Part shown: positions 449 through 21,245 of the stretch, one piece after another
Layout: every line of letters begins with the position of its first letter
How positions within the stretch are numbered: the stretch's first letter is position 1
Virus record (IMG/VR): IMGVR_UViG_3300020400_001055
Coordinates: 1-36,306 of that record
Origin: a virus
Length of the DNA: 36,306 bases
Direction: 5' to 3' (one strand)
Position numbers and translations under genes: made by a program
Notes under the pieces: generated by a model
The model's database searches: none
Told to the model about the DNA's origin: nothing
What the model saw: only the letters and a program-made list of their open reading frames with translations

Positions 449-565
449 CTACTCATATATGAAAGGATCACGTTTACGCAATTCTTCCATACGTTTTTTC
501 CTTAATTTTTTTATTTTGTACTGTGTCCACGGCCAAAGTAAGAAATTTTTTATTCGGGCAAGCAT
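449..565 (-). CDS. Small basic protein, 38 aa, downstream of the carbamoyltransferase
   Basis: The ATG at 563-565 lies inside the end of the carbamoyltransferase gene (16-base overlap) and is preceded by GGAG with a 7-base gap, an excellent ribosome site. The frame runs 38 codons to a TAG at 449. The product has a short hydrophobic and tryptophan-containing start (KNFLLWPWTQ) and then a strongly basic stretch (KIKKLRKKRMEELRKRD), ending DPFIYE. The basic stretch is probably helical. I recall similar short proteins ending RKRDPFIY in marine T4-like phages, but from memory only. Its role is unknown. The tight coupling suggests production together with the carbamoyltransferase, for example as a membrane-surface or partner peptide. 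Confidence 0.72.
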   Translation of the reverse strand: MLARIKNFLLWPWTQYKIKKLRKKRMEELRKRDPFIYE

Positions 566-2028
566 ACTTCTACTCCATATTTTTTAGTCCATCTGAGGGC
601 ATCTTTACGTGTATTTACTAAGGGTTCACCTTTTATGTTTAAACTGGTATTAAGTAGCATTGGACAACCTGTTAGTTTATACCACTGTTCTAACAGTTTT
701 CGGAATCCTGTATTATCTGTTTTAGCAACTGTCTGAACTCTTGATGTGTCATCGTAGTGGACGATTGCTGGAAACGCATCAGGTCTTTTACACGTCGAGG
801 TGTATTGCATATACGGACCTGTGTAGCCGTCGAAATATTCGCTTGCGTATTCTTCAAGGATTGCTGGTGCAAATGGTCTGAATGATTCTCGCTGTTTAAT
901 ACTGTTAACAAGGTCCTTGACATCATCTCCACGGGGATCAGCAAGAATACTGCGGTTGCCAAGAGCCCTAGGACCATACTCAGCCCTTCCACTTGCAACA
1001 GCGGTGATCCTATCTGTTTGTAACTTTTGTAATATCTTTTCAACTGGATATTCTCCTTTTATATTATGTCCCAAGTAAGGTCCGGGCCAATCAATATGCT
1101 TGCTTTTGTGTGCTAACACACAACCAATTGCACTGCCAGCATCACCAGGATTTGGCATAATCCACACATTCTTAAAATGCTTATGTGCAATTGGATTAGC
1201 AACACAATTTAATACACAACCTCCAGTAAGCACTAGATTCTTTTTATTTGTTATATTAGCTGTATATTCAATCAATCCTTGAAATATTTCTTCATATATT
1301 CGTTGGACACCAGCGGCAATATCTGCATAGTTTTGTACAGTTTTCAACAAAGGTTGCCAGTTCATACAGCCTCTGTGACAGTTACGCAAGAATACAGTTT
1401 TACCGTCTTGCTTTGTTGGCATTTTGAGTATAAAGTCTTCTTTAATCATATTATAGTAAGTATTAGGATCACCTACAGCTGACATGCCCATCAATATGTA
1501 TTCATGTTCTTGTGGTTTCAATCCAATACGCTGTGTCATTCCACTGTACCATATTCCAATACTGTCAGGATAACTTTGACTCCATACTTTTTTCAAGCGA
1601 TTGCCTTCTCCAGTCCATACACTAATAGTTTCCCATTCACCTATACTATCAATACACAATATAGCGGCATCATCAAAAGGACTAGTAAAGTAACCTCCGG
1701 CGGCATGACTGTGATGATGTGTGGTATTAATACTTCTAGGAGCGTCTTTGTAAAACTTTCGCATATATGTTGTTGGAGATTGTTTTTTAAGTAAGTTATA
1801 TTGCCCAGCATAAAACTGTCTTGTTTTTTTGAGCCAAGGTCGTTCATAAAAGAAAACTTGTTGAGGTTTGCCAAATTTTAATGCATCTGATATTATTCCA
1901 TTATTTAGATGCTTGTCATTTTTAATTCTACTGTAGCGTTCTGCATGTGCGGCGAATACCAATTGCTTGTCATCAAAGACAGCCAAACTAGCATCATGTG
2001 CCATACCACTCCAACCCCAACTAATCAT
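550..2028 (-). CDS. NodU/CmcH-family O-carbamoyltransferase
   Basis: Members of this family transfer a carbamoyl group from carbamoyl phosphate, via carbamoyl-AMP, to a hydroxyl of a sugar or antibiotic. From ATG 2028 the protein is 492 aa. The Kae1-like N-terminal half shows MISWGWSGMAHDASLAV at the start, the metal-binding HHHSHAA at 104-110, GGCVLN at 269-274 and PGDAGSA at 294-300. The C-terminal YrdC-like half shows EYGPRALGNRS at 350-360, RESFRPFAPA at 380-389 and LNTSLNIKGEP further on. At 492 aa it is shorter than the usual 550-600. The ATG overlaps the stop of the HAD gene as ATGA; a TTG at 2046 is in frame but would add residues the family does not have. The substrate is probably a sugar made by the neighbouring enzymes (inference). 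Confidence 0.93.
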   Translation of the reverse strand: MISWGWSGMAHDASLAVFDDKQLVFAAHAERYSRIKNDKHLNNGIISDALKFGKPQQVFFYERPWLKKTRQFYAGQYNLLKKQSPTTYMRKFYKDAPRSINTTHHHSHAAGGYFTSPFDDAAILCIDSIGEWETISVWTGEGNRLKKVWSQSYPDSIGIWYSGMTQRIGLKPQEHEYILMGMSAVGDPNTYYNMIKEDFILKMPTKQDGKTVFLRNCHRGCMNWQPLLKTVQNYADIAAGVQRIYEEIFQGLIEYTANITNKKNLVLTGGCVLNCVANPIAHKHFKNVWIMPNPGDAGSAIGCVLAHKSKHIDWPGPYLGHNIKGEYPVEKILQKLQTDRITAVASGRAEYGPRALGNRSILADPRGDDVKDLVNSIKQRESFRPFAPAILEEYASEYFDGYTGPYMQYTSTCKRPDAFPAIVHYDDTSRVQTVAKTDNTGFRKLLEQWYKLTGCPMLLNTSLNIKGEPLVNTRKDALRWTKKYGVEVCLPE

Positions 2029-2387
2029 AGTTCGTATTCTTCCCAATCAATGTTTTCAAAGCCTTCATCACGCTTCATATTTACAGCATGGGCTTTTACC
2101 TTGCCTTTCCAATTAATGTCATTTATTAATACTCTGCCTGTATCTGCATATCCCATCAGCAACACATCAAACGGAATGCCTGCATTTCTTAGAGCATTTT
2201 CTGTAATTTCTCTAACACTTTCTCTCCTGCCAGTTAACAATATAATTCTGCAACCTTTTTCCTCCCATGCTTTGAATTTTTCTAAGACACCAGGAAGTAT
2301 TTGTGCTTCTGTGTGTACTAGGTCGTAATGATGGTTACGTACATATTTGAAAATGGTTCCATCAATATCACATATTATTGTTTTCAT
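2025..2387 (-). CDS. Small HAD-superfamily phosphatase
   Basis: The 120-aa protein has HAD motif I DIDGT (D7, D9) at the N-terminus, motif II LLTGR at residues 50-54, and a motif IV-like LINDI around residue 90. There is no large cap domain, as in small phosphatases often found in capsule and sugar loci. The likely reaction is hydrolysis of a phosphate ester, perhaps of a sugar phosphate or a carbamoylated intermediate, but the substrate is unknown. The ATG at 2387 has only a weak purine-rich upstream stretch (GAAAGTGAAAC). It is the first gene of a leftward three-gene unit and its stop overlaps the carbamoyltransferase start by 4 bases. A TATAAATA box lies about 40 bases upstream. Confidence 0.85.
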   Translation of the reverse strand: MKTIICDIDGTIFKYVRNHHYDLVHTEAQILPGVLEKFKAWEEKGCRIILLTGRRESVREITENALRNAGIPFDVLLMGYADTGRVLINDINWKGKVKAHAVNMKRDEGFENIDWEEYEL

Positions 2388-2419
2388 AGTTTCACTTTCA
2401 AGACAAATTTAAATATCTT

Positions 2420-2427
2420 CATAAATA
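2420..2427 (+). promoter_or_regulatory. T4-type late promoter box (CATAAATA) for the plus-strand block
   Basis: The plus strand reads CATAAATA at 2420-2427, one base from the T4 late consensus TATAAATA. It would place the transcript start near 2433 and the GTG start of the next gene about 25 bases later. It is directly back to back with the minus-strand box at 2428-2435. Confidence 0.45.
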
Positions 2428-2435
2428 TATTTATA
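2428..2435 (-). promoter_or_regulatory. T4-type late promoter box for the HAD/carbamoyltransferase unit
   Basis: The minus strand reads TATAAATA from 2435 to 2428, identical to the T4 late promoter consensus. Initiation about 6-8 bases downstream would give a leader of roughly 34 bases before the ATG at 2387. It lies within a perfect 14-base palindrome (2421-2434) and abuts a similar box on the other strand. In AT-rich DNA an 8-base AT motif can occur by chance; the position between divergent genes supports it. Confidence 0.55.
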
Positions 2436-2457
2436 TATGTAGTTAATAGGCAATATT

Positions 2458-3858
2458 GTGAAAATAATTCAAATAAATCAGCAACGTAATCAGCGAATGA
2501 AAAATCAAGGTGATGTGCCTTATTGGTTTGTTGATAATTTAATACATCAAAATCAAAACGATTGGAAAATAATTAAACCAACGCCTGTGTTTGAATTAGC
2601 ATACCCTGAAGAAGTGTTTAACTCGAATGAAAAATATTGTGTATATCTTAATGTGTTTGATGATTTAATTTTTCCACCTGGTGAATATGCTTTTTTAAAA
2701 CATAATAGAGATGAAACAGACCCTAACAAATGGCTAAATGTAATGACCATGAATCCTCATATCTGGGAAGATTCTGGAAAAGGTAATGTGTTGTGGATTG
2801 TTGATTGGAGCACAGAAACTTATATAAGCAAGGATTGGATAGACATTACTATGTTGCCTTATGCATTAAATATAAAAGACTATCAAGAAAATCTTATTGT
2901 GCTTACTGGTGCTGAACTAAGATACAAAGACATTAATCAAGACACTAGACAATACTGCGATAAAGCAAAAGGAAAAAGTCATGTTTTTACATGTGACACA
3001 CTTGCAAGTTTTTTAGATAGGATAGCAGTTGCTGAAGAAATACAACAAACAGATTACTTAAACAAAAAAATAAAATCTATACATCAAAAAGAAGATAGAG
3101 AATATTACAGTGTGTGTTATAATCGTCTACCAAGAATGCATCGAAGTTATATAGTGTCACACATGATGCACATGGGTTATATTGACAAATGCAATTACAG
3201 TTTAGGTATACAAGCACCTTTTATTGGACAGTATGCAAATTTACCAACACAAGTAAGACCAGAATTAATTCACTACATAAGACACCTTGGGCTAGATCCT
3301 AATGTAAATGATACATATATTAAGTTAAGAGAGTCGTCTAAGGATGGGCAAGGAATTGAACAGCAGATTAATACTAAACATGAAAGCATGGATCTAAATT
3401 TTAATCAAGCTGATAATTTAAATCTAAATCAAGGTATGCACAACTATTTGCATATTGTCACGGAAACAATGGCAATTGACACTTGTGCATCTCCACTGTA
3501 CCATCCAACTTTTTTAACAGAAAAATCATATAAACCTTTTTTAATGCTTCAACCATTCATTGCTTTTGGATCAAAAGACAACTTGTTAAGTTTACAATAC
3601 AAAGGTTTTGATGTATTTGACAAATGGATAGATGTAAGCTATGATAGTATAGTCGATGAAGGAAAAAGACTTAAATTATTTTTAAAAGAATTAGATAGAT
3701 TACATTCACTATCAATTGAGGAATGGAAACAGTTGTCCATTGACATGTTACCCAGTGTGTTACACAATTACTACAATTATTTCAATTATGATCCCAACGA
3801 CGTCATTGTAGAAATATGCAGTATTGCAATGCAATTCCAACACAAAGTAGTACAATGA
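2458..3858 (+). CDS. Glycosyltransferase-like protein with TEKSxKP C-terminal motif
   Basis: This 466-aa protein starts at GTG 2458, preceded by AGG 7 bases upstream; the next in-frame ATG (about 2494) has no visible ribosome site. The N-terminal two thirds match no family I recognise. The last third carries TFLTEKSYKPFLMLQPFIAFGS followed by GFDVFDKWIDVSYD (given here in two parts), a pattern resembling the C-terminal sugar-nucleotide half of some retaining or fucosyl-type glycosyltransferases. The minus-strand protein at 8477-9682 has the same block (FITEKSIKPMSMLQP, GFYMFDDVIDHSYD), so these are paralogs. It is the first gene of the plus-strand block, sharing an ATGA junction with the SGNH gene. 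A glycosyltransferase role is inferred; catalytic residues cannot be named. Confidence 0.7.
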   Translation: MKIIQINQQRNQRMKNQGDVPYWFVDNLIHQNQNDWKIIKPTPVFELAYPEEVFNSNEKYCVYLNVFDDLIFPPGEYAFLKHNRDETDPNKWLNVMTMNPHIWEDSGKGNVLWIVDWSTETYISKDWIDITMLPYALNIKDYQENLIVLTGAELRYKDINQDTRQYCDKAKGKSHVFTCDTLASFLDRIAVAEEIQQTDYLNKKIKSIHQKEDREYYSVCYNRLPRMHRSYIVSHMMHMGYIDKCNYSLGIQAPFIGQYANLPTQVRPELIHYIRHLGLDPNVNDTYIKLRESSKDGQGIEQQINTKHESMDLNFNQADNLNLNQGMHNYLHIVTETMAIDTCASPLYHPTFLTEKSYKPFLMLQPFIAFGSKDNLLSLQYKGFDVFDKWIDVSYDSIVDEGKRLKLFLKELDRLHSLSIEEWKQLSIDMLPSVLHNYYNYFNYDPNDVIVEICSIAMQFQHKVVQ

Positions 3859-4547
3859 AACTAGTAGTTGCTGGTTGTAGTGTAAGTGATCGTACTAGAG
3901 TAGACACTGCATATGGTGAAATTTTAGCTGATTCAATTGGTTATGATTATGTGCATCATGGAGCTGGTTGTGGAAGTAATTACAGAATTTGGAAAAAACT
4001 TACACAGATGCTGATGTCGGGTCAATTGACAGAAAATGATATAGTATTAGTGCAATATACCAGTATGGATAGGCAGGAATTTTGGAGTGATACACTAGCA
4101 CCAGAATTCCATCGATATTCAATGCATGATAAAAATATTGAGTTGCGTGAGCTTAACAATGGTGGCAACATCGTAAGATACAAAAGTTTTGTATATGGCG
4201 AAGGAAAAATTGAAAACCAGTTTTTAGAAATGTATGAAAAATATTTCAATAATATTGAATACAATCGAGAACTGTTTGCAACAAATCATTTTCTATTTCA
4301 TAACACCATGGACAAATATGGTATAAAAATATTTTACATAACTTTTGAAGATACAGATACACACAATTTTTATGCTTATGTAGGTCAAGAACAACCTTTG
4401 TTTCAAACTACAAACGAACAACACATTAATATAACCAATATTGAAAGTAAATACTGTTTGGAAGATAAAGGACATTTCAGTCAACAAGGTCACAATTATG
4501 TTGCAAAAGTTCTTGAACAAAAATTAAAAGACAGAGGAGTAATATAA
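3855..4547 (+). CDS. SGNH/GDSL-type hydrolase or acyltransferase
   Basis: SGNH enzymes are esterases or acyl transferases, often acting on O-acetyl groups of glycans. From ATG 3855 (ATGA overlap with the previous stop) the protein is 230 aa. Visible blocks are AGCSVSD with the presumed nucleophile S9, HGAGCGSN with the oxyanion-type G40 and N42, and near the C-terminus EDKGHFS, fitting the DxxH block with D204 and H207. The middle holds VLVQYTSMDRQEFW. A start 39 bases upstream is in frame but lacks a ribosome site and would place non-homologous residues before block I. It may add or remove acyl groups on the glycan made by the island (inference). A second SGNH gene lies at 11719-12636. Confidence 0.72.
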   Translation: MKLVVAGCSVSDRTRVDTAYGEILADSIGYDYVHHGAGCGSNYRIWKKLTQMLMSGQLTENDIVLVQYTSMDRQEFWSDTLAPEFHRYSMHDKNIELRELNNGGNIVRYKSFVYGEGKIENQFLEMYEKYFNNIEYNRELFATNHFLFHNTMDKYGIKIFYITFEDTDTHNFYAYVGQEQPLFQTTNEQHINITNIESKYCLEDKGHFSQQGHNYVAKVLEQKLKDRGVI

Positions 4548-5776
4548 TGTCAAATATTGGCTTTATAGGCGTAGGCAAACTAGGAATGCCATGTGCAGAA
4601 GAAGTAGCTAAAAAAGGTCATCACGTAGTTGGTTATGACATTGCTACAAGACACAGTGATATAATAAAAACAGTTGACACTATTGAAAAATTAGTGCAGA
4701 ACAAGGATATAGTATTTGTTGCAGTACCAACTCCACATGATCCCAAATATGATGGAGATGCACCTACTGCACATTTAGATCCTAAGGACTTTAGTTATGA
4801 TATTGTTAAACAATGTTTAACGGAAGCCAACAAATACATGAACAAACAACAAATATTAGTTTTGATCAGTACGGTCTTACCAGGTACAACAAGACGTGAA
4901 TTTGTTAGTTTAGTATCTAATACAAGGTTTGTTTATAATCCATATTTGATTGCAATGGGCAGTGTAGCTTGGGATATGGTAAATCCAGAAATGGTAATGA
5001 TAGGAACAGAAGATGGATCTGAAACAGGTGATGCAAAAGAACTTGTTGAATTTTACAAAACAGTGATGAATAACAATCCACGCTATGTAATAGGAACATG
5101 GGATGAATGTGAATGTATCAAAGTTTTTTACAATACATTTATAAGTGCTAAACTGGGTTTGGTAAACATGATACAGGATGTAGCTGAAAAACAAGGAAAT
5201 ATTAATGTAGATGTAGTAACCAAAGCACTAGCTGAAAGTGATATGCGTATCATGGGCAAACAATTTATGACAGCAGGTATGGGAGATGGTGGTGCATGTC
5301 ATCCAAGAGACAATATTGCACTGAGATATATGGCTGAAAAATTAGATTTAGGATATGATTTGTTTGATAGTATAATGAATGCTAGAGAAGTGCAAGCCAA
5401 AAATATGGCTAACACTATTACACATTTTGCCAAATTAAACAACATGCCAGTAGTAATCCACGGTAAAGCCTACAAACCCAATGTGCCTTATCAAGAAGGT
5501 AGCTACAGCAAACTGGTAGGACACTATGTTCAGAATGCAGGGATCAACAATGTTAACTATGTTGATCCGCAAACAGATGACTATTACAAGCCCGAAGGCC
5601 CTTGTGTATTTTTACTGGCTCACAGTGCAGAAATAACCTATGAATACACAGGTAAAAATCATCAAGATAAACTGTATTGTGATATACCAGCTGGAAGTAT
5701 AGTAATTGATCCTTGGAGAAAATTTAAAAAAGATGACGTGACCGTAATACATTACGGAAACACAAGAAAGACATAG
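4547..5776 (+). CDS. UDP-glucose/GDP-mannose dehydrogenase family protein
   Basis: Enzymes of this family oxidise the C6 alcohol of a nucleotide sugar to a uronic acid with two NAD molecules. The 409-aa protein has the Rossmann motif GVGKLG at 8-13, the ISTVLPGTT segment near 108-115, the central ECIKVFYNTF helix with K192 and N197, and the catalytic cysteine in GGACHPRDN (C251). The C-terminal NAD/UDP-sugar domain includes GKAYKPNV, the usual substrate-binding loop. Its length is normal, if at the short end. ATG 4547 overlaps the previous TAA by one base and has GAGGAG upstream. The specific nucleotide sugar cannot be read from the sequence; UDP-glucose, UDP-N-acetyl sugars and GDP-mannose are all used in the family. 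Confidence 0.92.
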   Translation: MSNIGFIGVGKLGMPCAEEVAKKGHHVVGYDIATRHSDIIKTVDTIEKLVQNKDIVFVAVPTPHDPKYDGDAPTAHLDPKDFSYDIVKQCLTEANKYMNKQQILVLISTVLPGTTRREFVSLVSNTRFVYNPYLIAMGSVAWDMVNPEMVMIGTEDGSETGDAKELVEFYKTVMNNNPRYVIGTWDECECIKVFYNTFISAKLGLVNMIQDVAEKQGNINVDVVTKALAESDMRIMGKQFMTAGMGDGGACHPRDNIALRYMAEKLDLGYDLFDSIMNAREVQAKNMANTITHFAKLNNMPVVIHGKAYKPNVPYQEGSYSKLVGHYVQNAGINNVNYVDPQTDDYYKPEGPCVFLLAHSAEITYEYTGKNHQDKLYCDIPAGSIVIDPWRKFKKDDVTVIHYGNTRKT

Positions 5777-5778
5777 TT

Positions 5779-6690
5779 ATGAAAATATTATTAACAGGCA
5801 CAAGTGGATTTATTGGTCAACATCTATTGCCTAGATTAAAACAATTTGGTGAAGTCCACAGTTTAAAAAATGACCTTACTCATCATACAGGTATACAACT
5901 AGAAGTAAAAAAAGCTAAGCCGGATATTGTTGTACACTTGGCGGCAAGAACTGAAGTGCAAAAAAGTTTTTATGAACAGGTAAGTTTCAGCGAAGTAAAT
6001 TATGTTGGCACAGTTAATCTAATAGAAGCCTGTAGACAGCTAAGTGACATGCCGTATTTTGTATTTGCTAGCACAATGGAAGTGTATGGTTGGCAACCAA
6101 TTAGCGATGAAGTAAAACAAACTGGAACTTACACAACAAAAGTTGCTTTTGATGAATATACACAGCCCAATCCTAATGCACCTTATGCTGTGGCAAAATA
6201 TGGTTGTGAAAAATATTTAGAATATGCTGGTAGAGCATATGGACTACCTTGGGCAAGTTTTAGACAAACAAATAGTTATGGTCGCAAAGACAATGACTTT
6301 TTTGTTACAGAGCAAATTATCAGTCAAATGTTAAAAGGTAACACCTGCAACTTAGGATATGCAGAACCATACCGAAACTTCATTTACATAGATGATTTAT
6401 TAGATGCATGGATGGCAGTAATTGAAAACAGAGACAAGTGCAAAGGAAACTTTTACACAATTGGGCCTAACGACCCACGAAAGATCAGACATTGTGCTGA
6501 TTACATTGCAAAACAATTAGACTGGACTGGGAAAATAAATTGGGACACCAAAGATCCTCGACATGGCGAAATCTGGTGGTTAAATAGTAATAATGACTTG
6601 CTAACTAGCAAAACAGGTTGGACATCTAAAGTAAGTTATGAAGAAGGAATAGATAGAACTATTCATCATTGGAAAAGTGTTTTAGGTTAA
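5779..6690 (+). CDS. NAD-dependent nucleotide-sugar epimerase/dehydratase (extended SDR)
   Basis: The 303-aa protein has the N-terminal NAD motif TGTSGFIG at 6-13, HLAA at 53-56, the catalytic serine region FASTMEVYG (S98) and the YxxxK pair as Y136-AVA-K140 in APYAVAKYGCEKY. It also has RQTNSYG and NFIYIDDLLDA, both typical of nucleotide-sugar epimerases and dehydratases. It lies two bases after the dehydrogenase stop. The pairing suggests they act in sequence, for example oxidation followed by epimerisation or decarboxylation of a nucleotide sugar. Epimerase, dehydratase and uronate decarboxylase cannot be told apart here. The ribosome site is weak (GAAAG), consistent with translational coupling. 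Confidence 0.92.
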   Translation: MKILLTGTSGFIGQHLLPRLKQFGEVHSLKNDLTHHTGIQLEVKKAKPDIVVHLAARTEVQKSFYEQVSFSEVNYVGTVNLIEACRQLSDMPYFVFASTMEVYGWQPISDEVKQTGTYTTKVAFDEYTQPNPNAPYAVAKYGCEKYLEYAGRAYGLPWASFRQTNSYGRKDNDFFVTEQIISQMLKGNTCNLGYAEPYRNFIYIDDLLDAWMAVIENRDKCKGNFYTIGPNDPRKIRHCADYIAKQLDWTGKINWDTKDPRHGEIWWLNSNNDLLTSKTGWTSKVSYEEGIDRTIHHWKSVLG

Positions 6691-6693
6691 TGG

Positions 6694-8493
6694 ATGCATA
6701 ACATTTACTTGTTTCAACCTCAGTATACAAGTATTTTTAATGGGGAAAAAGTATACTGGATACCCTATAGTATAGGATGTTTGTGGAGTTATGTCAAGCA
6801 ATTTGAACATATTGATAAAAACTTTGAATGTCCTGAATTATTCTTCAAGCGAGATAATCCTAAAGATATTATAGCAAGACTAGATAATCCTAAGCTGTGC
6901 GGTTTCAGTTGTTATGTTTGGAATGAAAAGTATTGTTTGCATGTTGCTGAACAAATAAAAAAACAATGGCCAGATTGTATCATTATGTTTGGCGGAGAAC
7001 AAACTGATCAAAGTTTTCTTGATTATGACTTTATTGATAGTGTTGCACAATATGAAGGTGAAGAAAATTTTTTAGAAATATTAGAATGTATTTTAAAAAA
7101 TACTACAATACCAAAAACTTTTGCTAAACGTAGACTGAATAACTTAAATATTCCTAGTCCTTATACCGAAGGCATATTTGATAAAATTATTCAAGACAAT
7201 TCTAATGCAAAATGGAATATGACTTTTGAAACCAATCGTGGTTGTCCTTTCAGTTGCACATTTTGTAATTGGGGAAGTTTGACACAGAGTAAAATTAAGC
7301 GTTTTGATATAGAAAGAGTTACAAAAGATCTTGAATGGTGTATAGGTAAGCCTATAACATATTTGTTTGGCGCCGATGCCAATTTTGGAATATTTAAAGA
7401 TAGAGATTTAGAAATTGCCAGAGTAATTAAACGTGTTGCGGCACTAAGTGAAATTGATGCTGTCAATCTACAGTACACAAAAAACAGCAATGAAACAGTA
7501 TTTGAGATAGCACAAGAAATGGATCACCTAAGTAAGGGTATTACTGTTAGTGTGCAAAGTATGAATCAACCGACACTAGAAGCTATAAAAAGAACAAATC
7601 TAGCTTTTGATAATATTGAGCATGTCATGAAGGTTGCTAAGAAATACAAGACAAAAACATACAGTGAACTAATTCTTGGCTTACCTTTGGAAACAATTCA
7701 TACATGGAAAGATGGTCTATGCGAATTACTAGAGCTTGGTCAACATGACAGTATAGATGTATGGTTTGCACAATTGTTGCAAAACAGTGAACTAGCACAC
7801 CCTGACACAGTAAAACAATATGGCATTAAAAGTGTAATGGCAAAAGATTATTTTATACTGAACAATTATAATTATTGGGAAGATGTGCCTGAACAAATTA
7901 ATATTATTAATGCAACCAATACAATGACCACTGAACAAATGGTAGAGTGTTACGTATATGCTTGGATGATTATTAATTTCCATATAAATGGATACAGTCA
8001 AATTTACAGCAAGTATTTAAACAAAGTTAAAAAAATACCTTATAGAACTTTTTATGATCTGCTATGGCAGGAATTAAATTCGCCAACTAACAATCAACTA
8101 CAAAAACATGTCAAGTTTTTGAGAGATACTATCTACAAATATTTAAAAACTGGAGCTATAGATGATGGACAAAAAGGACATAACTTTATTCACGTAAGCA
8201 GTAAGTTTTTGTATGAACATAAGAGTGATATGTTTGCAATTAGTAAAAAAATACTAGACTGCCTTTGTGAAGATAATCCAACAAATCTACAAAAGCTACA
8301 GGAAAATATACTATTAGATAAGGAACTAAGTTATCCTATACAAATTAGTTTTGATTATGATATAGATGGTAATTGGGAAAATAAAGAAGTTAATATTACA
8401 TTGGATAGTCGTATTACAGATTTCGACAATCACAATTTTTATGCTTTGCGTAGACAAAATTTAATCCGTAATCAAATTACTGTTCATGCATAG
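6694..8493 (+). CDS. B12-binding-type radical SAM protein
   Basis: The 599-aa protein has a cobalamin-binding-like N-terminal domain (about residues 1-135, including FSCYVWN, IIMFGGEQ and YEGEENFLEIL) and a radical SAM core whose CxxxCxxC is C184, C188 and C191 in NRGCPFSCTFCNWG. The core continues with FGADANFGI, SVQSMN and ELILGLP. The C-terminal 200 residues are not recognised. The N-terminal domain lacks an obvious DxHxxG cobalamin ligand motif, which is common in this broad class. Family members catalyse C-methylation and other radical reactions; the substrate here is unknown, but the gene setting suggests a sugar or glycan. The ATG at 6694 was chosen because the ATG at 6690 stops after three codons. 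It ends head-on into the gene at 8477. Confidence 0.88.
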   Translation: MHNIYLFQPQYTSIFNGEKVYWIPYSIGCLWSYVKQFEHIDKNFECPELFFKRDNPKDIIARLDNPKLCGFSCYVWNEKYCLHVAEQIKKQWPDCIIMFGGEQTDQSFLDYDFIDSVAQYEGEENFLEILECILKNTTIPKTFAKRRLNNLNIPSPYTEGIFDKIIQDNSNAKWNMTFETNRGCPFSCTFCNWGSLTQSKIKRFDIERVTKDLEWCIGKPITYLFGADANFGIFKDRDLEIARVIKRVAALSEIDAVNLQYTKNSNETVFEIAQEMDHLSKGITVSVQSMNQPTLEAIKRTNLAFDNIEHVMKVAKKYKTKTYSELILGLPLETIHTWKDGLCELLELGQHDSIDVWFAQLLQNSELAHPDTVKQYGIKSVMAKDYFILNNYNYWEDVPEQINIINATNTMTTEQMVECYVYAWMIINFHINGYSQIYSKYLNKVKKIPYRTFYDLLWQELNSPTNNQLQKHVKFLRDTIYKYLKTGAIDDGQKGHNFIHVSSKFLYEHKSDMFAISKKILDCLCEDNPTNLQKLQENILLDKELSYPIQISFDYDIDGNWENKEVNITLDSRITDFDNHNFYALRRQNLIRNQITVHA

Positions 8494-11722: not shown

Positions 11723-12636
11723 TTGTTTAATTCTGGTAGTATCACTTGCTCTACATACTTTTCATATGTATATTTACTGTAGTGACCTCCAACACATTGT
11801 ATTGGATTACCTTCAGCTTCAACTTGTTCAAATACTTCACTTATACCAGTCAATAATAAATCAGAAAATTGTTCTTTTAAAAATTTAACTAAATCTTTGT
11901 GTTTGTATTTTTCAACTAAATTTTCATTGTCAAAAAGTTCTTGTGTTGAGAGTTCTATTTCAATATAGTCCCAAGGAATATTAGGATGATATTTGTTTGG
12001 ACAAAACTGATGAAAAGGATCTATAAAGAGAATTTTTTTACAGCCTTGTTCATTTATCAGTTGTTTGATAGTTTTGACATAACTTAATGTTGTAATTGCT
12101 TTTGCTGTACTGTCATCTCCAAAGATAAGATCAAGTTGTTTCCATTTTGTATACCCGTCTTTGTTAAGCACAGGTGACCAACAGTTTGTAAATGTGCCGG
12201 TTCTTCCATTACTTGTATGTATACCATAGTAGGATCTTCTTTCTGGTTGACTTATTCCGCACACAACAATAGTCTCTTTATCTATAGTTTTTAAATTTTT
12301 TATAACATCATTTAATATAATGTTATTGCTGTGTCCTCCAGTTGCATAATTTATATGTTTTACATCAAGTTTCCTACTGAGTATCCCTCCTATACTATAA
12401 TAGTGTGGATGTGTGGCATCTTCATGTTTTTCTAATTTAGTCATGAAATCGTTGTAATCATTTCGTTCTTGTGATGTAAGGGGAGGGTCAGGCACTCCGT
12501 CTTTATCTAAGACCAATTCCCATCTGCCAATTGCATCACCTGCATCTTGTAAAAATTTAGATTTACAAAAATTGTGTTGGAAACTTTCGGTACCATACAT
12601 AAAACTATCACCAAATACAATTACTTTATTCGTCAT
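11719..12636 (-). CDS. SGNH/GDSL-type hydrolase-like protein
   Basis: The 305-aa protein begins MTNKVIVFGDSFMYGTE, a classic block I with the nucleophile S11. A glycine and asparagine block follows as YATGGHSNN at 98-105. Near the C-terminus is GGHYSKYTYEKYV with a candidate catalytic H285, but the residue three positions before it is valine, not the usual aspartate, so the canonical DxxH is not present. A different acid may serve, or activity may be changed. ATG 12636 has an AGGAG upstream and overlaps the previous gene by 11 bases. It sits between two twitch-type radical SAM genes. It could act on acyl groups of the glycan (inference). Confidence 0.78.
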   Translation of the reverse strand: MTNKVIVFGDSFMYGTESFQHNFCKSKFLQDAGDAIGRWELVLDKDGVPDPPLTSQERNDYNDFMTKLEKHEDATHPHYYSIGGILSRKLDVKHINYATGGHSNNIILNDVIKNLKTIDKETIVVCGISQPERRSYYGIHTSNGRTGTFTNCWSPVLNKDGYTKWKQLDLIFGDDSTAKAITTLSYVKTIKQLINEQGCKKILFIDPFHQFCPNKYHPNIPWDYIEIELSTQELFDNENLVEKYKHKDLVKFLKEQFSDLLLTGISEVFEQVEAEGNPIQCVGGHYSKYTYEKYVEQVILPELNK

Positions 12637-14194
12637 TTTGCTTCTCCTGTTCTAGTTTACATATATTGTAAAAATGCTCAAGTTCTGGAAATGTTTTTAC
12701 AAAATCTTTGTTTCTTCTTTTTTCGTACTCTTGTGCGAAATTAAAAAATCTTCTTCTAGCACGACCATAAACACTATCTTGTTTTGTCTCATCTTCGTTT
12801 ATGTATCTTATTTGTATAATTAAGTCAAAAAGTATACGTCTAAATTTTTCTATTTCTTGCGGTTCAAATCTTATATTATCTGACCACCCAGGTACCACTG
12901 CATTTTCAGTCATATATTCAAAAGCAGGTATTAGATAATTTGCAATCACATCTTTTGTAAGCAGTCTGGCATCTAGGAAATCTGGCTGTCTAACATATGG
13001 AATATCAATACCAACTCTTGATACACTTTCATCATCAGGTCGATTAATACTACTACCTGCTAAAGTTATAAAATTGTCTACATCAAAAGGTGTATCTTTA
13101 GATAACCAACGTTGTATACCATTGGCACTGTATTTTCTTTTTAGGTTTAATATATATTCTAAAAATTTTTTAAAGCTAGGAGCACTAAGCAAGTTGAATG
13201 CACTCATAAAAGTTACTCTAGTATTATTAGTATTGTCCAAAAAATATTCTATATCACGTACAAAGTTTTTCCAAACAATACCATCTCTGATATATTCACA
13301 CTGTTCGTCTGTTGCTTCAGAGCTTGTAAATAATGTAAATTTTTTCACACACTTTTCTTGCTCTAATATTTTTACATTGTCTACAAATTTTTTCCAAAGT
13401 TTATCTGGTACGCCTGCATTACTGTTAATTGCAAATTCTAAATTAGGCATAGGATTATCTTTCAAATAATCAATTACTTTAAAAGTGTGTTTACTCAGTA
13501 GAGGTTCACCTCCTGTAATTCTAAATGTATGCATGTGTTTAATTGATTTGGGGAACCATTTCCAAAAAGCATCAGTATAAGGATTGTCTTCTCTGTTTGC
13601 AATTTGTTTCTGTATATCACTACCGCCATTAAATGACATATTTTCTAGTTTATAAGGACCGTGTCTGTTTATTTCTTCTGCCCATATGCTACTAAAATTA
13701 GGACCACAATATGCACATTTGAAATTACAAACATTACTAAAACTTACTTCAACATATCTAGGAAAGATATTCTCATGCCCTTTAAGATTGCTTATATCAT
13801 CATGGTCATCGAAACTGTAGTGGTCAAAACTTTTGTAAACTCTATCACTAAAATTTCCATCTTTATTATCTTCTATTCGCCAACAATAATCACACTCAGC
13901 AGGTCTTTGACCATTTAGCATGAGTCTACGTTGTTCTTTTTTATGTTTTGTGTTATGCAATGATCCTGGATGAACTTCAAGTTCATCCAATGGAATAGGA
14001 TGTGCAGATGGATGATGACAACTGTGTGTTAGTCCATTTCCCAAATGCATTGTTACTTGCGTCCATTTTGCCAAACAAAAACCAGGACCTTTAGAATCCA
14101 ATAGATCTTTCATTTTTTGATGATTTGCATGACTAATTATAGGTTTGCCTTTACTATTGACATCCCAATCATAATCAGCTAAAGATTTACTCAT
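12626..14194 (-). CDS. Radical SAM protein with N-terminal twitch-like cysteine domain (long form)
   Basis: From ATG 14194 the protein is 522 aa; a TTG two codons upstream is in frame but offers nothing better. N-terminal cysteines C40, C59, C101 and C104 (CLAKW, THSCHHP, CDYCW) form a probable auxiliary cluster. The radical SAM motif is C156, C160 and C163 in SNVCNFKCAYCGP, with TGGEPLL near 227-233. The C-terminal 200 residues, with many basic residues, are not recognised. It shares its layout with the 382-aa protein at 10574-11722 but is longer and replaces a CC pair with a histidine-flanked cysteine. The start overlaps the fusion-enzyme gene by 8 bases. Confidence 0.86.
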   Translation of the reverse strand: MSKSLADYDWDVNSKGKPIISHANHQKMKDLLDSKGPGFCLAKWTQVTMHLGNGLTHSCHHPSAHPIPLDELEVHPGSLHNTKHKKEQRRLMLNGQRPAECDYCWRIEDNKDGNFSDRVYKSFDHYSFDDHDDISNLKGHENIFPRYVEVSFSNVCNFKCAYCGPNFSSIWAEEINRHGPYKLENMSFNGGSDIQKQIANREDNPYTDAFWKWFPKSIKHMHTFRITGGEPLLSKHTFKVIDYLKDNPMPNLEFAINSNAGVPDKLWKKFVDNVKILEQEKCVKKFTLFTSSEATDEQCEYIRDGIVWKNFVRDIEYFLDNTNNTRVTFMSAFNLLSAPSFKKFLEYILNLKRKYSANGIQRWLSKDTPFDVDNFITLAGSSINRPDDESVSRVGIDIPYVRQPDFLDARLLTKDVIANYLIPAFEYMTENAVVPGWSDNIRFEPQEIEKFRRILFDLIIQIRYINEDETKQDSVYGRARRRFFNFAQEYEKRRNKDFVKTFPELEHFYNICKLEQEKQNDE

Positions 14195-14999
14195 TTTCAA
14201 ATCTCTCTATATCATCTTCACTAAGTAAATTGGATTTTCCTTTCCATATTTCAACAATATGAGCAGGTTCATCACTGTCATTACAACCTTGATGCCAACT
14301 GTATCTGGGTATATCAACAGGATTGTTTGGATGCAAATAATACAATGAACAACCATCAAATGGATTGTGCAATCTATGATTTATTTTTATGTAAGCCTGA
14401 CCACTGACAATATTCCAAGTTTCGCTTCTGTGTTCGTGCCTTTGCATGGTTAATTTGCTTCTAGGATTTATCACAAGTTCTTTGACTTGAAATCCTTGAC
14501 CTTTATATAATTCTCTGTAGTGTCCCCATTCACGTTCTACTTTGGGTGCAATCCAATTTTGTAATATCCAACTACTACTATTAATTTTAGTTGTTCCGCC
14601 TACCCCACTTACAAATTCAACATTAGGATGATCACCATAAATTTCCTGCTCTGGTATGTTTCCTTCTATTCTATCTCCACCATTTGCAACAATAATTTTT
14701 GCGGAAGTAGTGCTTAGTAATTTAAAAATAGCACCTCCTGCATCATCAAATTTATCATCATTGTCAACTGAGATGACATCATCTACTATACTAAGTTCTT
14801 TTATTATTTTTAATCTTTCAATAAACGGCATAAATGGTCTGCCTTTTTTACGTGCAAGCCATTCGTCACTGTTAACTCCTACCACTAGTTTTTGTCCTAG
14901 TTTTTTTGCTTCTCTAAAATATAAGATATGTCCACTGTGTAAAGGATCAAAACCTCCTGTGACCAAAACAATTTTAGTTATCTCCGAGGGTGTCTTCAA
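14187..14999 (-). CDS. Cytidylyltransferase fused to a ManC-type cupin
   Basis: Residues 1-150 are a nucleotidyltransferase of the RfaE/TagD type: GGFDPLHSGHILYF with HSGH at 21-24, then VGVNSDEWLA and the TKINSSSWIL segment. Residues 158-268 resemble the cupin at the C-terminus of ManC/type II phosphomannose isomerase: WGHYREL, QRHEHRSETW (candidate metal ligands Q186, H188, H190, E193) and RYSWHQG (H236), ending with SEDDIERFENE. It may activate a sugar or alditol phosphate and isomerise it, or use the cupin only for binding. No ATG precedes the catalytic motif; the best start is TTG 14999, with GGAAG 6 bases upstream. It overlaps the preceding gene by 26 bases. Confidence 0.85.
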   Translation of the reverse strand: MKTPSEITKIVLVTGGFDPLHSGHILYFREAKKLGQKLVVGVNSDEWLARKKGRPFMPFIERLKIIKELSIVDDVISVDNDDKFDDAGGAIFKLLSTTSAKIIVANGGDRIEGNIPEQEIYGDHPNVEFVSGVGGTTKINSSSWILQNWIAPKVEREWGHYRELYKGQGFQVKELVINPRSKLTMQRHEHRSETWNIVSGQAYIKINHRLHNPFDGCSLYYLHPNNPVDIPRYSWHQGCNDSDEPAHIVEIWKGKSNLLSEDDIERFENE

Positions 15000-15960
15000 C
15001 TTGATCTTCCCTTATCATAGGCCCTAATCTACTAGGATTTTTATATACAGTTTTAAAAAATCTACTAGCAGTTTTATCCATGTCGCTTATTTCTAAATCT
15101 AAGGTACCACGTAACTCTTCACCAAGTCGAACAGTTTCTTTTTTAAGTTTATTCCAATCCCAACTCATGCCAGTGTTAACGCACATTTGATCAAATCCTT
15201 CGAACTCAGGGAAAAGTTCTTTTGTAAAATAATCACTAAGCCAATCAAAATCTCTAACGTTTTTCCAATCCCATTTATGTCTCTGAATATTAGTCATGTG
15301 ACATCCTAATCTAGCACCATACACAGCCCACAGACCATTGGTAACATCTTCACCTACGCTCATCCATACAAGCAGTCTTTGATAATTTTGTCTGTGTATT
15401 TGTTTAATTCTAGTTGGATCAATTACATCACCACCATCTAATCCCATCTTTACACCTTCACGAAAACCAGCTCTCCATGCTTGTAGTGGTGAGCCGTTGT
15501 TCATTACATCACAGTATACGTTGTTCATTTGCACGTAATGTATATTCCAACAAAAGTCTACTTGTGCTCTTTTGTCACTTTCAGGTGCCGCTTCATGTGT
15601 ACGCATTCTATTAACAACATCTACGGGCCAACATTTAATACCTCCATTACCATATACCAAACCATTTACAGCATTTTTTCCTGCCCAACTGATTACGTCC
15701 TCTGCGCCTATTTTATCCATGTCTATTTCAACATTGAAAAAATCTTCTCTTACTATATTATCTGCATCTACTGTTACAAATCTATCGGTCTCGCACATTG
15801 CCGCCGCCGCTTTATGTGCCGCATCACTTCCCCATACTCCATGACTGCGTTTTGCCCAAGGACATTTGTCCAGCAAATCATTGTAATTGTGATCTGCATT
15901 TGGCTCATCATAACTTATATAAACAATATCAAATTCAGTGATTGGAACTAAATTAGCCAT
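14974..15960 (-). CDS. Glycosyltransferase-like DxD protein
   Basis: The 328-aa protein starts MANLVPITEFDIVYISYDEPNAD, followed by SHGVWGSDAAHKAAAAM and RFVTVDADNIV, with the DxD at 65-67. This resembles a GT-A fold with its metal-binding motif. The later part includes NGLVYGNGGIKCWP, often the acceptor side in such enzymes. It is the full-length paralog of the partial gene at the left edge. I recall proteins of this type from marine T4-like phages, from memory only. ATG 15960 overlaps the TAA of the preceding gene by one base and has AGGAG 8 bases upstream. Donor and acceptor are unknown. Confidence 0.75.
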   Translation of the reverse strand: MANLVPITEFDIVYISYDEPNADHNYNDLLDKCPWAKRSHGVWGSDAAHKAAAAMCETDRFVTVDADNIVREDFFNVEIDMDKIGAEDVISWAGKNAVNGLVYGNGGIKCWPVDVVNRMRTHEAAPESDKRAQVDFCWNIHYVQMNNVYCDVMNNGSPLQAWRAGFREGVKMGLDGGDVIDPTRIKQIHRQNYQRLLVWMSVGEDVTNGLWAVYGARLGCHMTNIQRHKWDWKNVRDFDWLSDYFTKELFPEFEGFDQMCVNTGMSWDWNKLKKETVRLGEELRGTLDLEISDMDKTASRFFKTVYKNPSRLGPMIREDQVEDTLGDN

Positions 15961-16973
15961 TAATTTTCTCCTACTAATTCGTAATCGAATGTTATCAGTC
16001 TATTTTCTTCTTTACATAATATGTCACAATCTTCTATTTTTACCTTGGTATGAAGTTTAGATATTTTGTTGTAACCTATCTCATCATATGGAATAGTAAT
16101 TGCGGACTTCATATAATTTATGTTATTTTTATCTACCAAGAATATTGTAAGATCTTTGTATATGTTATGTTCATTGGGATCATCAAAATTACTTCTTATG
16201 TAATACTTTCCGTCTCTACTAATAAATGTAAAAGGATTAATTACTGTTTTTGTTGTAGCTGTTATTTTTACAAAATTTCTAGATTTGCTTTCTTTTTTAG
16301 TAAATTCAGGACGTACAAAGTAGTTTTTATATTTGACACCATAAGATTTAAATATCTTTTTTGTCAACACACTTATATCACCCAAACCACATACTGTGTG
16401 TAAATGATGCATATCAAAAATCAAATATCCACGTGTTAATAAATGGGCTGTATCTATCTCCAATGTGTGTATTAAAAAATTTGGGTCATTTTGTTTTACA
16501 AGATAAAATATAACATTATCATATTTGCCTTCTAGATGTGAATTTATTTTTAAGTTTCTATGATAGCGTTTACCTGTCATTTTGTACAGTGTATCTTCAT
16601 TAAAATAAACTTCCATTTTCCAACTGTCTATATAAAAAAGTATATTGATATCTTTGTCAGCAATTTTAATAGTTGGAATTAAAGTTAAAAAATCTTCAGC
16701 TGATCTTATTCTAAGATCCTCGCTTCTTGTTGAAAGAGCATAGCCATCTTCACGCTCAACTACACAGTATTTTATGGGATTCAATTCACCAAGCAGTATA
16801 CGTCTAGCATCATCATTTATTGTGGTTATATATGGAAAATCTATTTGTTGTTTAGGTTTATTGGTTACAGTAACTATATCTCCATTTTCATCATCAAAAT
16901 AAACGCACCATTTTTTTGGTGCTTTTGGTTTATGTTTATCAATTAATAATGATTTTACTTGTTCATTTAACAT
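15960..16973 (-). CDS. Unknown phage protein (337 aa)
   Basis: I do not recognise this family. The protein has no signal peptide or clear membrane segment. It is rich in Lys, Asp, Ile and Tyr, with a charged start (KSLLIDKHKPKAPKKW) and many short beta-prone stretches (YLIFDMHHLHTVCGLG, DGKYYIRSNFDD). It lies between two glycosyltransferase-like genes, overlapping the upstream gene by 11 bases and sharing a TAATG junction with the downstream one, so it is likely made together with them. The ribosome site at ATG 16973 is weak. Confidence 0.72.
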   Translation of the reverse strand: MLNEQVKSLLIDKHKPKAPKKWCVYFDDENGDIVTVTNKPKQQIDFPYITTINDDARRILLGELNPIKYCVVEREDGYALSTRSEDLRIRSAEDFLTLIPTIKIADKDINILFYIDSWKMEVYFNEDTLYKMTGKRYHRNLKINSHLEGKYDNVIFYLVKQNDPNFLIHTLEIDTAHLLTRGYLIFDMHHLHTVCGLGDISVLTKKIFKSYGVKYKNYFVRPEFTKKESKSRNFVKITATTKTVINPFTFISRDGKYYIRSNFDDPNEHNIYKDLTIFLVDKNNINYMKSAITIPYDEIGYNKISKLHTKVKIEDCDILCKEENRLITFDYELVGEN

Positions 16974-17835
16974 ATGTATCTAACAGTTCTTTTGTAAAAA
17001 ACTTTTCATCGTTGTAGTGAATAATTCCGCTATTGATTACATGATTTTCAATTTGTATTTTTCCATTTCCACTTATCCAATAGTTTAGCATTTCAGTCCA
17101 ATTTTGTGGTATATCATCAGTCCATACCCCCTGACTGTCACTATGCAAATCATAATGATTGTTAAGATGTACTGCTATTTGTTTGTGTAGATCTGTGCAG
17201 TGTGTCACAAGATTGCACAAAATATTTTTATTGAAAGTCAAAGGTTTTTTATCTTTAAAAAAATAATTGTAAACACTACGCCAATTTTGCATAATTGGAT
17301 CAGCCATTTTAAACCATTGTTCTGCGTCAGGATGATCTCTTTTAAAGTAAATCATATTGTTAAACAATTGAGGAAGTGCATACAATTCTTCAAATTCAAA
17401 TCTGTATTTCCTAAAAATAGGTATATGTTTAAAACTTAATGCTTGTGTAGGAATACTAATACCTCCATTGATTTGCATTGTATTCCATAATAAATCTATG
17501 TCTATGTTATGCAATAACGTATCAGCATCTACGTAGATTGTATCTTTAAAAGGAGTACAATGATACATCTGCCACAAGTTCATGCCATGAAACCCGTCTT
17601 TATAAGCAGTGTTACCAAATGGTAATTCAACAATATAATCAAAAGCATGATGATATTCTTTCTTCACATTATCCATTTTGTCCTTGTCAACTACTAAGCA
17701 GACTTGACTATCTGGATCGCTTGCTTTAATGCTACATGCTAATCCATAACAATGGTAAATTCTGTCCTCTTGTGTATTGATTCCTAGTGTAATAAATCCT
17801 TTTCCTGCTCTTTCAAAATCTAGTTTATCAGACAT
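16963..17835 (-). CDS. Glycosyltransferase-like protein (GT8-like DxD)
   Basis: From ATG 17835 (GAGGA 8 bases upstream) the protein is 290 aa. It opens with KGFITLGINTQEDRIYHCYG, a layout seen in GT8-type enzymes, and has the DxD at 103-105 in TIYVDADTLLHN. Further on are NNMIYFKRDHPDA and, near the C-terminus, INSGIIHYNDEKFF, which may hold the second metal-binding histidine. The gene overlaps both neighbours by 8 and 11 bases. It resembles the next protein upstream (17828-18736), so the two are likely paralogs with different specificities. Confidence 0.8.
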   Translation of the reverse strand: MSDKLDFERAGKGFITLGINTQEDRIYHCYGLACSIKASDPDSQVCLVVDKDKMDNVKKEYHHAFDYIVELPFGNTAYKDGFHGMNLWQMYHCTPFKDTIYVDADTLLHNIDIDLLWNTMQINGGISIPTQALSFKHIPIFRKYRFEFEELYALPQLFNNMIYFKRDHPDAEQWFKMADPIMQNWRSVYNYFFKDKKPLTFNKNILCNLVTHCTDLHKQIAVHLNNHYDLHSDSQGVWTDDIPQNWTEMLNYWISGNGKIQIENHVINSGIIHYNDEKFFTKELLDTYVK

Positions 17836-18736
17836 ATGGAGATTCCTCAAAATGTTTTGCTATCTGGCCAGAATGTCTATCTAATGATCTTTTGTTCATG
17901 ACATGTAGATTATCATTTGTATGTCTTACAAGAATGTTTTTCCATTGTTCAACTCTGTTGTGTTTTAAAAATATAACATCGTTGGATTTGTTAAACTTAA
18001 CAATATCATCTTTTTGATCCATGTTAATCATTGGAACACCTTTAAAGTCATGTATAAAATCAAAACTGTTCATACCATTCATTAAATGACATGCAATACT
18101 AACACAAAAATCAGTTCTATATAAATGTTTAGGAAACTGGTATAACAAACTGTAGTATTCGTAATTGTCCCTGACATGACTCCAAATATCAAAAAACAAT
18201 TTGCTTTCTTGACTTTGATCGAAATAAATTACTGTACTCCACCAATGGTGAATACCACTACTGTTTAACAACATTTCGCTGAAGTAAGGTAATTCGCCAC
18301 CTATGTATTCTGCATTTTTGTGTAGACCAATGCTGATGTCTGTGTCAAACAAATAATCGTAAAAGTTATTCATTATGAGATAATCTACATCTATTAGTAA
18401 TGTTTTTTCAAAAGGTGTATATTCAAAAACTTTGTGTTTGTTACTGTTTTTGAATTGTGCATTAAATTCTGTCCAAGGACTGTCATGATGCACTCTTGGA
18501 TTGCTTTCATGTTCTATATTACTTGTTACAATATAATCAAAGCATTCATCTATTGTTTGTTTATCTATACTTTGTTCCATCCAATTGATTGTACCGTCGT
18601 CAGTAATCAAACAAACTTTGTTGTTTTGCATGTTACGTTTCACATATTGACTTACAATTGTTGCAAACTTTATATAATCTAATTCAGGATTATTATAAGC
18701 AAAAATGCAAATTCCAGCTTGTTCTTGCTTACTCAT
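17828..18736 (-). CDS. Glycosyltransferase-like protein (GT8-like, DVD)
   Basis: The 302-aa protein opens with AGICIFAYNNPELDYIKFA and has the motif KTLLIDVDYLIMNN with DVD at 116-118, replacing the usual DAD. It also carries IHHWWSTVIYFDQS, matching the acceptor-side region of the neighbouring 290-aa protein, and FLKHNRVEQW towards the C-terminus. The start ATG 18736 immediately follows the TAA of the 115-aa gene (TAAATG), so translation is coupled. The role is inferred from the DxD and context; the donor is unknown. Confidence 0.77.
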   Translation of the reverse strand: MSKQEQAGICIFAYNNPELDYIKFATIVSQYVKRNMQNNKVCLITDDGTINWMEQSIDKQTIDECFDYIVTSNIEHESNPRVHHDSPWTEFNAQFKNSNKHKVFEYTPFEKTLLIDVDYLIMNNFYDYLFDTDISIGLHKNAEYIGGELPYFSEMLLNSSGIHHWWSTVIYFDQSQESKLFFDIWSHVRDNYEYYSLLYQFPKHLYRTDFCVSIACHLMNGMNSFDFIHDFKGVPMINMDQKDDIVKFNKSNDVIFLKHNRVEQWKNILVRHTNDNLHVMNKRSLDRHSGQIAKHFEESPYV

Positions 18737-19084
18737 TTACCAATCCATCAAACTTTTAATATTTCTAGCTTTTGTAACTTTATCCATTTGTAATTTATAT
18801 TCATTGGTGCTTTCTGTGTAAGCGCCTAATAATAAATCCAATAGTTCTTGAGTATCTTCTATTGTAATTGGTGTTTCTTTTGTGTCCAATACAATTGCAC
18901 TTTTTCTGTCACTGTCTACTAAAGATTTTACAAAACTAATTGTAATTGGATTAGCTACAAAGACTCCTTTGTTGTGATGTACAGTTTGTAAAACATGCAT
19001 TCTTTGTCTAATGCTTCTTTTTTGATTACTTAATGTAATCCTATAATTTGCAAATTCTAATGCTTTTTCGAGTCTATCATCCAT
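18737..19084 (-). CDS. Small conserved-looking phage protein (115 aa), unknown role
   Basis: The protein starts MDDRLEKALEFANYRITLSN and is mostly charged with helical stretches, ending TKARNIKSLMDW. I recall similar small proteins next to tail fibre genes in marine T4-like phages, from memory only; a chaperone or assembly role is possible but unproven. ATG 19084 has GGAG at 19095-19098 and is the first gene after the promoter region at 19112-19141. It is the only small soluble protein at the junction between structural genes and the glycan operon. Confidence 0.75.
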   Translation of the reverse strand: MDDRLEKALEFANYRITLSNQKRSIRQRMHVLQTVHHNKGVFVANPITISFVKSLVDSDRKSAIVLDTKETPITIEDTQELLDLLLGAYTESTNEYKLQMDKVTKARNIKSLMDW

Positions 19085-19111
19085 GATGAGTTTCTCCTAT
19101 AATTATATACT

Positions 19112-20317: not shown

Positions 20318-20318
20318 T

Positions 20319-21233: not shown

Positions 21234-21245
21234 CTGTTTTTCCTA

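Follow-up and report, generated by a model that had tools for sequence, protein, structure and literature searches.

Sugar-related gene islands beside tail genes are already known from marine phages. Indeed, pelagimyophages carry a hypervariable host recognition cluster (HRC) beside their tail fibres, with GT8, rfaE, UDP-glucose 6-dehydrogenase and radical SAM cassettes and with VrlC and the neck gene gp14 at its borders (PMC7029224), oceanic cyanophages (e.g. S-SSM7 and P-SSM2) have lipopolysaccharide (LPS) clusters and carbamoyltransferases (PMC3037559), and a T4-like marine genome is known to hold 12 radical SAM genes (PMC5332604). So far, tail-linked islands of this sort in T4-like marine phages have been interpreted, without a test, as modifiers of the host O-chain. 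The present analysis concerns an island of the same kind in the IMG/VR virus record IMGVR_UViG_3300020400_001055, a linear stretch of 36,306 bases (hereafter the window), which ends inside the island, cuts the genes at 33897-36305 and 1-399 (gt0) and contains no broken reading frame. A preliminary description had presented the locus as a carbamoylated uronic acid glycan system whose combination of genes would be unusual in a phage; this view of its rarity was not upheld, as Pelagibacter phage HTVC008M and Synechococcus phage Bellamy hold a carbamoyltransferase and a UDP-glucose dehydrogenase in one cluster and similar islands have been published (PMC7029224, PMC3037559).

Like the pelagimyophage HRC, the island lies beside the tail-fibre genes of a T4-like phage (adjacent fibre and baseplate genes, a T4-type portal in relatives, tail linkage in 54/55 loci) and its gene content varies between relatives, but the same cassette is kept wherever core identity reaches 80%. 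Unlike in the HRC, a constant operon (u115-gtE-gtD-gtC), which has a sigma70 promoter of its own, stands between the tail genes and the variable part, and the lineage is nearer to jumbo phages of the PA5oct/RaK2/Atu_ph07 type. The cyanophage LPS, Bellamy and HTVC008M clusters resemble the island in that one operon combines epimerases, a UDP-glucose dehydrogenase, glycosyltransferases and a carbamoyltransferase of the NodU type; those of Bellamy and HTVC008M, however, are not annotated beside tail genes, and no u115-gtE-gtD-gtC core was seen there. We found no description of this constant operon with its dual promoter, nor of the split between a tail-inherited core and an exchangeable cargo rich in radical SAM enzymes. 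These two traits make the acceptor and the timing of expression concrete questions, and the island offers a rich store of radical SAM enzymes, still uncharacterised and associated with glycosyltransferases, among which new sugar chemistry is likely.

A constant core operon and an exchangeable cassette

The locus is made of two parts: a conserved operon, u115-gtE-gtD-(u337)-gtC, right behind the tail genes, and then an exchangeable cassette. On the minus strand, a baseplate wedge gene (33897-36305; phrog_10646, 2.6e-124), open at the contig edge and marking the tail module, is followed by the gene of a giant 4009-residue virion structural protein (21868-33897; phrog_10938, 3.6e-232), by three tail/fibre genes (t227 at 21246-21863, fib304 and fib390, spanning 19145-21863; phrog_11259 and tail-fibre PHROGs) and then, without interruption, by u115 (18737-19084), gtE (17828-18736), gtD (16963-17850), u337 (15960-16973) and gtC (14974-15960). 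The placement of the locus directly downstream of baseplate, giant protein and fibre genes, given in the preliminary description, is thus confirmed. Hundreds of relatives have the core glycosyltransferase genes at this position.

Three separate IMG/VR selections were compared, made by the tail protein t227, by gtC and by the twitch radical SAM enzyme (rsTw); the relatives are all uncultured contigs, the loci were cut at 10 kb flanks, and the locus counts include related sequences, clustering and permutation being applied where relevant. Of the t227-selected loci that extend 4 kb or more beyond the last tail match, 38/40 encode the GT8-like pair further downstream, on the same strand. Among the gtC-selected loci with at least 6 kb upstream, tail genes precede the operon in 54/55, gtE/gtD are present in 55/55 and u115 in 54/55; gtE/gtD come after u115 in 84 of its 85 copies. 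Furthermore, the pairwise identities of the core proteins follow those of t227 (rho 0.49 for u115, 0.55 for gtC, 0.64 for gtE and 0.79 for gtD; 0/200 permutations each), whereas rsTw does not co-diverge with t227 (rho -0.09).

The cassette behaves differently from this core. The twitch radical SAM enzyme occurs in 30/55 gtC-selected loci, and a carbamoyltransferase and a UDP-sugar dehydrogenase in at least 2/55 and at least 4/55, respectively, the last two counts being lower bounds because the flanks are limited to 10 kb. Tail genes are present in only 38 of the 80 loci selected by the twitch enzyme, which therefore also lives elsewhere. Among 85 cassette proteins of relatives, radical SAM proteins form the commonest family (24, with SPASM in 10); epimerases, cupins, cytidylyltransferases, dehydrogenases, carbamoyltransferases and extra glycosyltransferase-like proteins are also encoded. 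In a close relative, G001, the island likewise ends with a carbamoyltransferase (66% identity) and a copy of gt0 (67%), and most of the intervening genes differ. Cassettes are common to relatives with core identity of at least 80% and are replaced at greater divergence; a very fast cassette turnover, also considered, is weakened by this sharing. Consequently, since its genes are rare optional cargo, the carbamoylated uronic acid is one version and not the system itself, contrary to what had been proposed. The check suggested earlier, whether the gene set always follows tail genes, gives almost always for the core operon, whose glycosyltransferases stay linked to the tail; the homologues of the carbamoyl and uronic genes, in contrast, are unlinked, an outcome that had been named as refuting. 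Two relatives, G001 (172 kb; 123-161 kb) and G003 (168 kb; 56-111 kb), have 15 radical SAM genes per genome, and those of G001 all cluster around the sugar island.

Promoter classes and expected timing

At the tail genes stands a late motif of the T4 type, NATAAATA. Sigma70 matches of 11/12 or better precede 16 genes in the relative G001 and 30 in the relative G002, against 1 and 0 in the antisense control; NATAAATA precedes 29 and 34 genes, respectively, against 6 and 6. The sigma70 set includes the clamp loader, ligase, polymerase, SbcCD and the late sigma factor, and the late set the portal, protease, endolysin, carbamoyltransferase and radical SAM genes; the exceptions are one head-protease match in the sigma70 set and a ribonucleotide reductase in the late set. 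Judged from these motifs, two promoter classes can be distinguished in this phage group. QueE-like radical SAM genes with early-type promoters are present in G001 and G002, and TGT/DpdA was not found there. In the window, NATAAATA occurs at 4 sites against 25.6 expected from first-order composition, each 9-48 nucleotides ahead of a start (t227, u115, the HAD gene and gtA); that of t227 is at position 21872, 9 nucleotides upstream. As the motif is strongly depleted and its remaining sites all stand just before genes, it can be used to map late transcription units in the group.

A sigma70 promoter (at least 11/12) precedes u115 in 33/53 distinct loci, against 0.1 expected, and none was found ahead of t227 or fib304 in the same comparison. 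When u115 was clustered at 50% identity, 13/19 clusters had such a promoter (at least 10/12), and in previously unused loci sigma70 matches and late motifs preceded u115 in 20/46 (0.2 expected) and 18/46 (2.2 expected), respectively. In the window, both classes overlap ahead of u115 (19084-19141, minus strand): the sigma70 elements, in the order TTGACA...CATAAATA...TATAGT with a spacing of 18, enclose the late motif CATAAATA (19128), and AGGAG is present. The carbamoyltransferase and dehydrogenase units have late motifs only; the two NATAAATA sites concerned lie in a divergent intergenic gap (2388-2457), on both strands (2420 on plus, 2435 on minus), so that the opposite-strand block 2458-8493 has a late-type motif of its own. 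The promoter claim rests on position and conservation, since promoter counts over the whole window do not exceed those of shuffles (119 vs 108). From this pattern, the core is probably made both early and late, and the sugar-making units late. The preliminary description had taken a late promoter as a sign of a virion acceptor and an early sigma70 promoter as a sign of a host acceptor; both are found ahead of the operon and only the late one ahead of the carbamoyltransferase and dehydrogenase units, a pattern which decides for neither acceptor.

The proposed acceptor of the glycan

The favoured reading, to which a probability of roughly one half (0.48) is given, is that the island glycosylates a tail protein of the phage, in preference to remodelling host LPS. 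The constant operon, with u115 and the soluble gtE, gtD and gtC, would be inherited with the tail, and the three enzymes would assemble, in the cytoplasm, a short glycan on a tail or fibre protein that the phage itself encodes; the downstream cassette, swapped among moderately diverged relatives, would supply and tailor the outer sugars, and the receptor-binding surface would be varied or shielded. In a wider sense, the data suggest a changeable coat of sugars, which the phages of this group would place either on their own tails or on the surface of the host. A bolder version, in which this is an undescribed and widespread system where the tail-inherited three-glycosyltransferase operon makes a virion core glycan and exchangeable radical SAM enzymes rewrite its outer sugars as a switchable receptor-binding or shielding layer, is rather doubtful.

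Glycosylation of a tail protein is favoured by the glycosyltransferase genes being linked to and co-inherited with structural genes, the core standing behind the tail genes and co-diverging with t227 while rsTw does not. That lineages from different waters have the same enzyme set fits an acceptor which does not vary and is encoded by the phage. Late motifs are found ahead of the tail, carbamoyltransferase and dehydrogenase units, and an overlapping one ahead of u115. As regards the enzymes, gtD (IYVDADT motif) is a GT8/glycogenin-like glycosyltransferase (glycogenin match 1.4e-6), and the matches to the gtC fold include SunS, a peptide S-glycosyltransferase. gtE (LLIDVDY motif; alignment A1) is a profile relative of gtD (99.7%); its own PDB profile search returned zero matches. 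gtD fits GT8 by a solved-enzyme profile match and a DxD motif, and gtE solely via gtD. gtC, the most conserved core glycosyltransferase (VDADN motif), is predicted to adopt a GT-A fold (structure model, pLDDT 88), with WrtF, SunS and TarS/TarP as best PDB matches at low TM-scores. PDB profile searches with gtC, u115, u337 and gtA/gtB gave chance-level matches or none. u337, for which 11 relatives were aligned without a PDB match, has no assigned function, and u115, a conserved helical protein of 115 residues that opens the operon, gave in a PDB fold search a weak, non-significant prefoldin-like coiled coil. Of the about five glycosyltransferase-like proteins announced previously, gtD, gtE (via gtD) and gtC (by its GT-A model) were substantiated, and gtA and gtB lack a match to curated models.

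Membrane segments were predicted in none of the window proteins and in 1/228 island-side open reading frames of relatives, so no flippase, polymerase, ligase or initiating transferase is recognised, which argues against a flippase/ligase-type system. The serotype-converting gtr cassettes of temperate phages, which change surface glycans, need the membrane proteins GtrA, GtrB and GtrC. The island differs in having no predicted membrane protein in the window, and serotype conversion of the Gtr type was dropped, no GtrA flippase, GtrB polyprenyl transferase or membrane GtrC being recognised among proteins without membrane segments. To our knowledge, glycosylated mycobacteriophages have no radical SAM or carbamoyl tailoring cassette. 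They offer a model of how tail-protein glycosylation would work, with phage glycosyltransferases reportedly acting on virion proteins (Freeman et al. 2023, cited in PMC12619734).

Several points weigh against a tail acceptor. The best-conserved promoter of the operon is of the sigma70 class; in two relatives this class is found before genes for replication, and an early onset of expression is therefore probable. Soluble GT8 enzymes also occur among the glycosyltransferases of the LPS core, and the absence of membrane proteins therefore does not exclude LPS. Genes whose products change the host receptor would be expected to be linked to tail genes as well. t227 and fib304 do not co-vary (rho -0.07), a comparison confounded by mosaic fibre genes. 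Finally, the gtC module exists outside phages: homologues, accompanied by genes for radical SAM enzymes and glycosyltransferases, lie in contigs of Rhodobacterales and Bdellovibrionia in which phage tail genes were not found, and the family thus needs no tail acceptor.

Remodelling of the host envelope is a tentative but serious alternative, in which the enzymes would act early on lipid A-core or O-chain precursors and change the receptor, thereby shutting out other phages or keeping new virions from being wasted on dead cells. It agrees with the sigma70 promoter ahead of the operon (33/53 loci; 13/19 clusters; 20/46 new loci), with GT8 and rfaE-like enzymes being typical of LPS biosynthesis, and with the published reading of similar pelagimyophage islands (PMC7029224). 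It fits less well with core enzymes that follow the tail genes and remain constant across phages with presumably different hosts, with the lack of any Gtr-type or Wzx/Wzy/WaaL-like membrane protein and with sugar-making units (2025-8493) that have late motifs only. An improbable explanation is that the system is not chiefly concerned with glycans, the twitch radical SAM enzymes modifying a peptide or virion protein (crosslinks or epimerisation, as in ribosomally synthesised and post-translationally modified peptides) and the sugar genes being accessory cargo. Radical SAM enzymes are indeed the commonest cassette family (24/85; 15 genes each in G001 and G003), and many characterised SPASM/twitch enzymes act on peptides (PMC11002830); yet nucleotide-sugar enzymes recur beside the radical SAM genes, the bacterial gtC homologues adjoin radical SAM genes together with glycosyltransferases, and no precursor peptide turned up, although no systematic search for one was made. 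DNA hypermodification, with glycosyltransferases decorating a modified base as in T4, is very improbable. The fixed position of the island behind the tail, the absence of DpdA/TGT in 7 relatives and zero matches to the T4 DNA glucosyltransferase families, the enzymes here being of GT8/GT-A types, all speak against it, and we know of no DNA role for a carbamoyltransferase or an epimerase. In its favour are a thymidylate-synthase-family gene in 5/7 relatives (the same fold as dCMP hydroxymethylase, the two being indistinguishable here) and a QueE-like radical SAM gene among the sigma70 genes; deazaguanine DNA modification was dropped, TGT/DpdA not having been found in the 7 relatives.

Cassette enzymes, lineage and bacterial homologues

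After gtC, the minus strand encodes a cytidylyl/adenylyltransferase (HldE-like) fused to a MannoseP-isomerase cupin (14187-14999; PF01467 3e-14, PF01050 5.9e-20), which may activate another sugar phosphate as a nucleoside diphosphate sugar, the twitch enzyme rsTw (12626-14200; CNFKCAYC; NF033640, 283.6 bits), which starts the exchangeable cassette in many relatives, an SGNH-like protein (11719-12636), a second twitch/SPASM enzyme, rsSP (10574-11722; CNMSCRMC; NF033640, 280.9 bits, curated cut-off 170 bits), u309 (9679-10608), without assigned function, which follows rsSP in close relatives (58-59% identity in L007, L008 and L011), and gtB (8477-9682; ITEKS..QP..G motif), a glycosyltransferase-like paralogue of gtA (alignment A6). 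A plus-strand block is inserted ahead of the HAD, carbamoyltransferase and gt0 genes; it comprises gtA (2458-3858; LTEKSYKP motif, alignment A6), a second SGNH-like protein (3855-4547), a UDP-sugar 6-dehydrogenase (4547-5776; GGxC motif GGACHPRD, curated models), an NAD sugar epimerase/dehydratase (5779-6690; STMEVYG, YAVAK; PF01370 4e-38) and a B12-binding radical SAM enzyme (6694-8493; CPFSCTFC; PF04055, PF02310). The last is nearest to the KedN5 C-methyltransferase model of NCBIfam, under its cut-off; all three window radical SAM proteins retain CxxxCxxC. Judging from their families, the dehydrogenase would oxidise UDP-glucose to UDP-glucuronate and the epimerase would then perform a 4-epimerisation or a decarboxylation. 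Its best structure matches are UDP-glucose 4-epimerases (1e-23), and its T-x-E motif (STMEVYG) resembles those of decarboxylases/dehydratases. Radical SAM tailoring, C-methylation by the B12 enzyme and O-carbamoylation may follow.

The minus strand then encodes a small HAD phosphatase (2025-2387; HAD_PNKP 36.5 bits, cut-off 27.6), a NodU/TobZ-type O-carbamoyltransferase (550-2040; PF16861 1.8e-53 and PF02543, both over cut-off), with the Kae1-like His motif HHHSHA and alignment to the NovN, GdmN and TobZ structures, and gt0 (1-399), a gtC-family paralogue cut by the contig edge, of which G001 has a copy (67% identity) at the corresponding position. A perfect 12/12 extended -10 sigma70 promoter precedes gt0 at 448-420, and positions 1-448 may be the start of a second early glycosyltransferase unit. 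Curated models thus bear out the predicted carbamoyltransferase, dehydrogenase, epimerase, HAD, cytidylyltransferase-cupin and three radical SAM enzymes. The two SGNH proteins retain their motifs (GDSF only for 11719-12636, seen directly), and neither matched a Pfam/NCBIfam SGNH/GDSL model at E 0.01. That this is a phage sugar locus is borne out, and the idea of a single system holds in part: 2458-8493 is on the opposite strand and has a late-type motif of its own.

The source phage belongs to a large, uncultured, mostly aquatic lineage. A nucleotide search with the island and protein searches with gtC, gtE and rsTw against 50,697 phage records gave zero matches. Relatives have a portal of the T4 type, closest to those of Pseudomonas phage PA5oct and Sinorhizobium phage Phosso (about 51% identity), and the baseplate protein of the window has distant relatives in Paride, Phosso, Atu_ph07 and RaK2; the lineage is therefore an uncultured T4-like jumbo myovirus group. 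Promoters of Bacteroidota differ from the TTGACA/TATAAT type, and this consensus argues against a Bacteroidota host. Moraphages are likewise large aquatic phages, with four glycosyltransferase groups among their widely shared genes, but their predicted hosts are Bacteroidota (PMC12619734); membership of this group was dropped.

Several contigs filed under bacterial metagenome-assembled genomes (MAGs), among others L188, L189 (MAG MED685), L191, L192 (MAG MED657), L190 and L216 (MAG RS350), carry the tail and core genes of this phage and are probably phage contigs binned with bacteria. gtC-family genes are further encoded in Bdellovibrionia/Bdellovibrionales contigs (L194, L205, L211, L212) and in Rhodobacterales contigs (L197, L200, L206-L210, L213, L220, L223). 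In Bdellovibrionia, a gt0-type gene and a gene for a twitch radical SAM enzyme come behind the gtC-family gene, and several of the Rhodobacterales genes lie near a group-1 glycosyltransferase or a caspase-domain protein.

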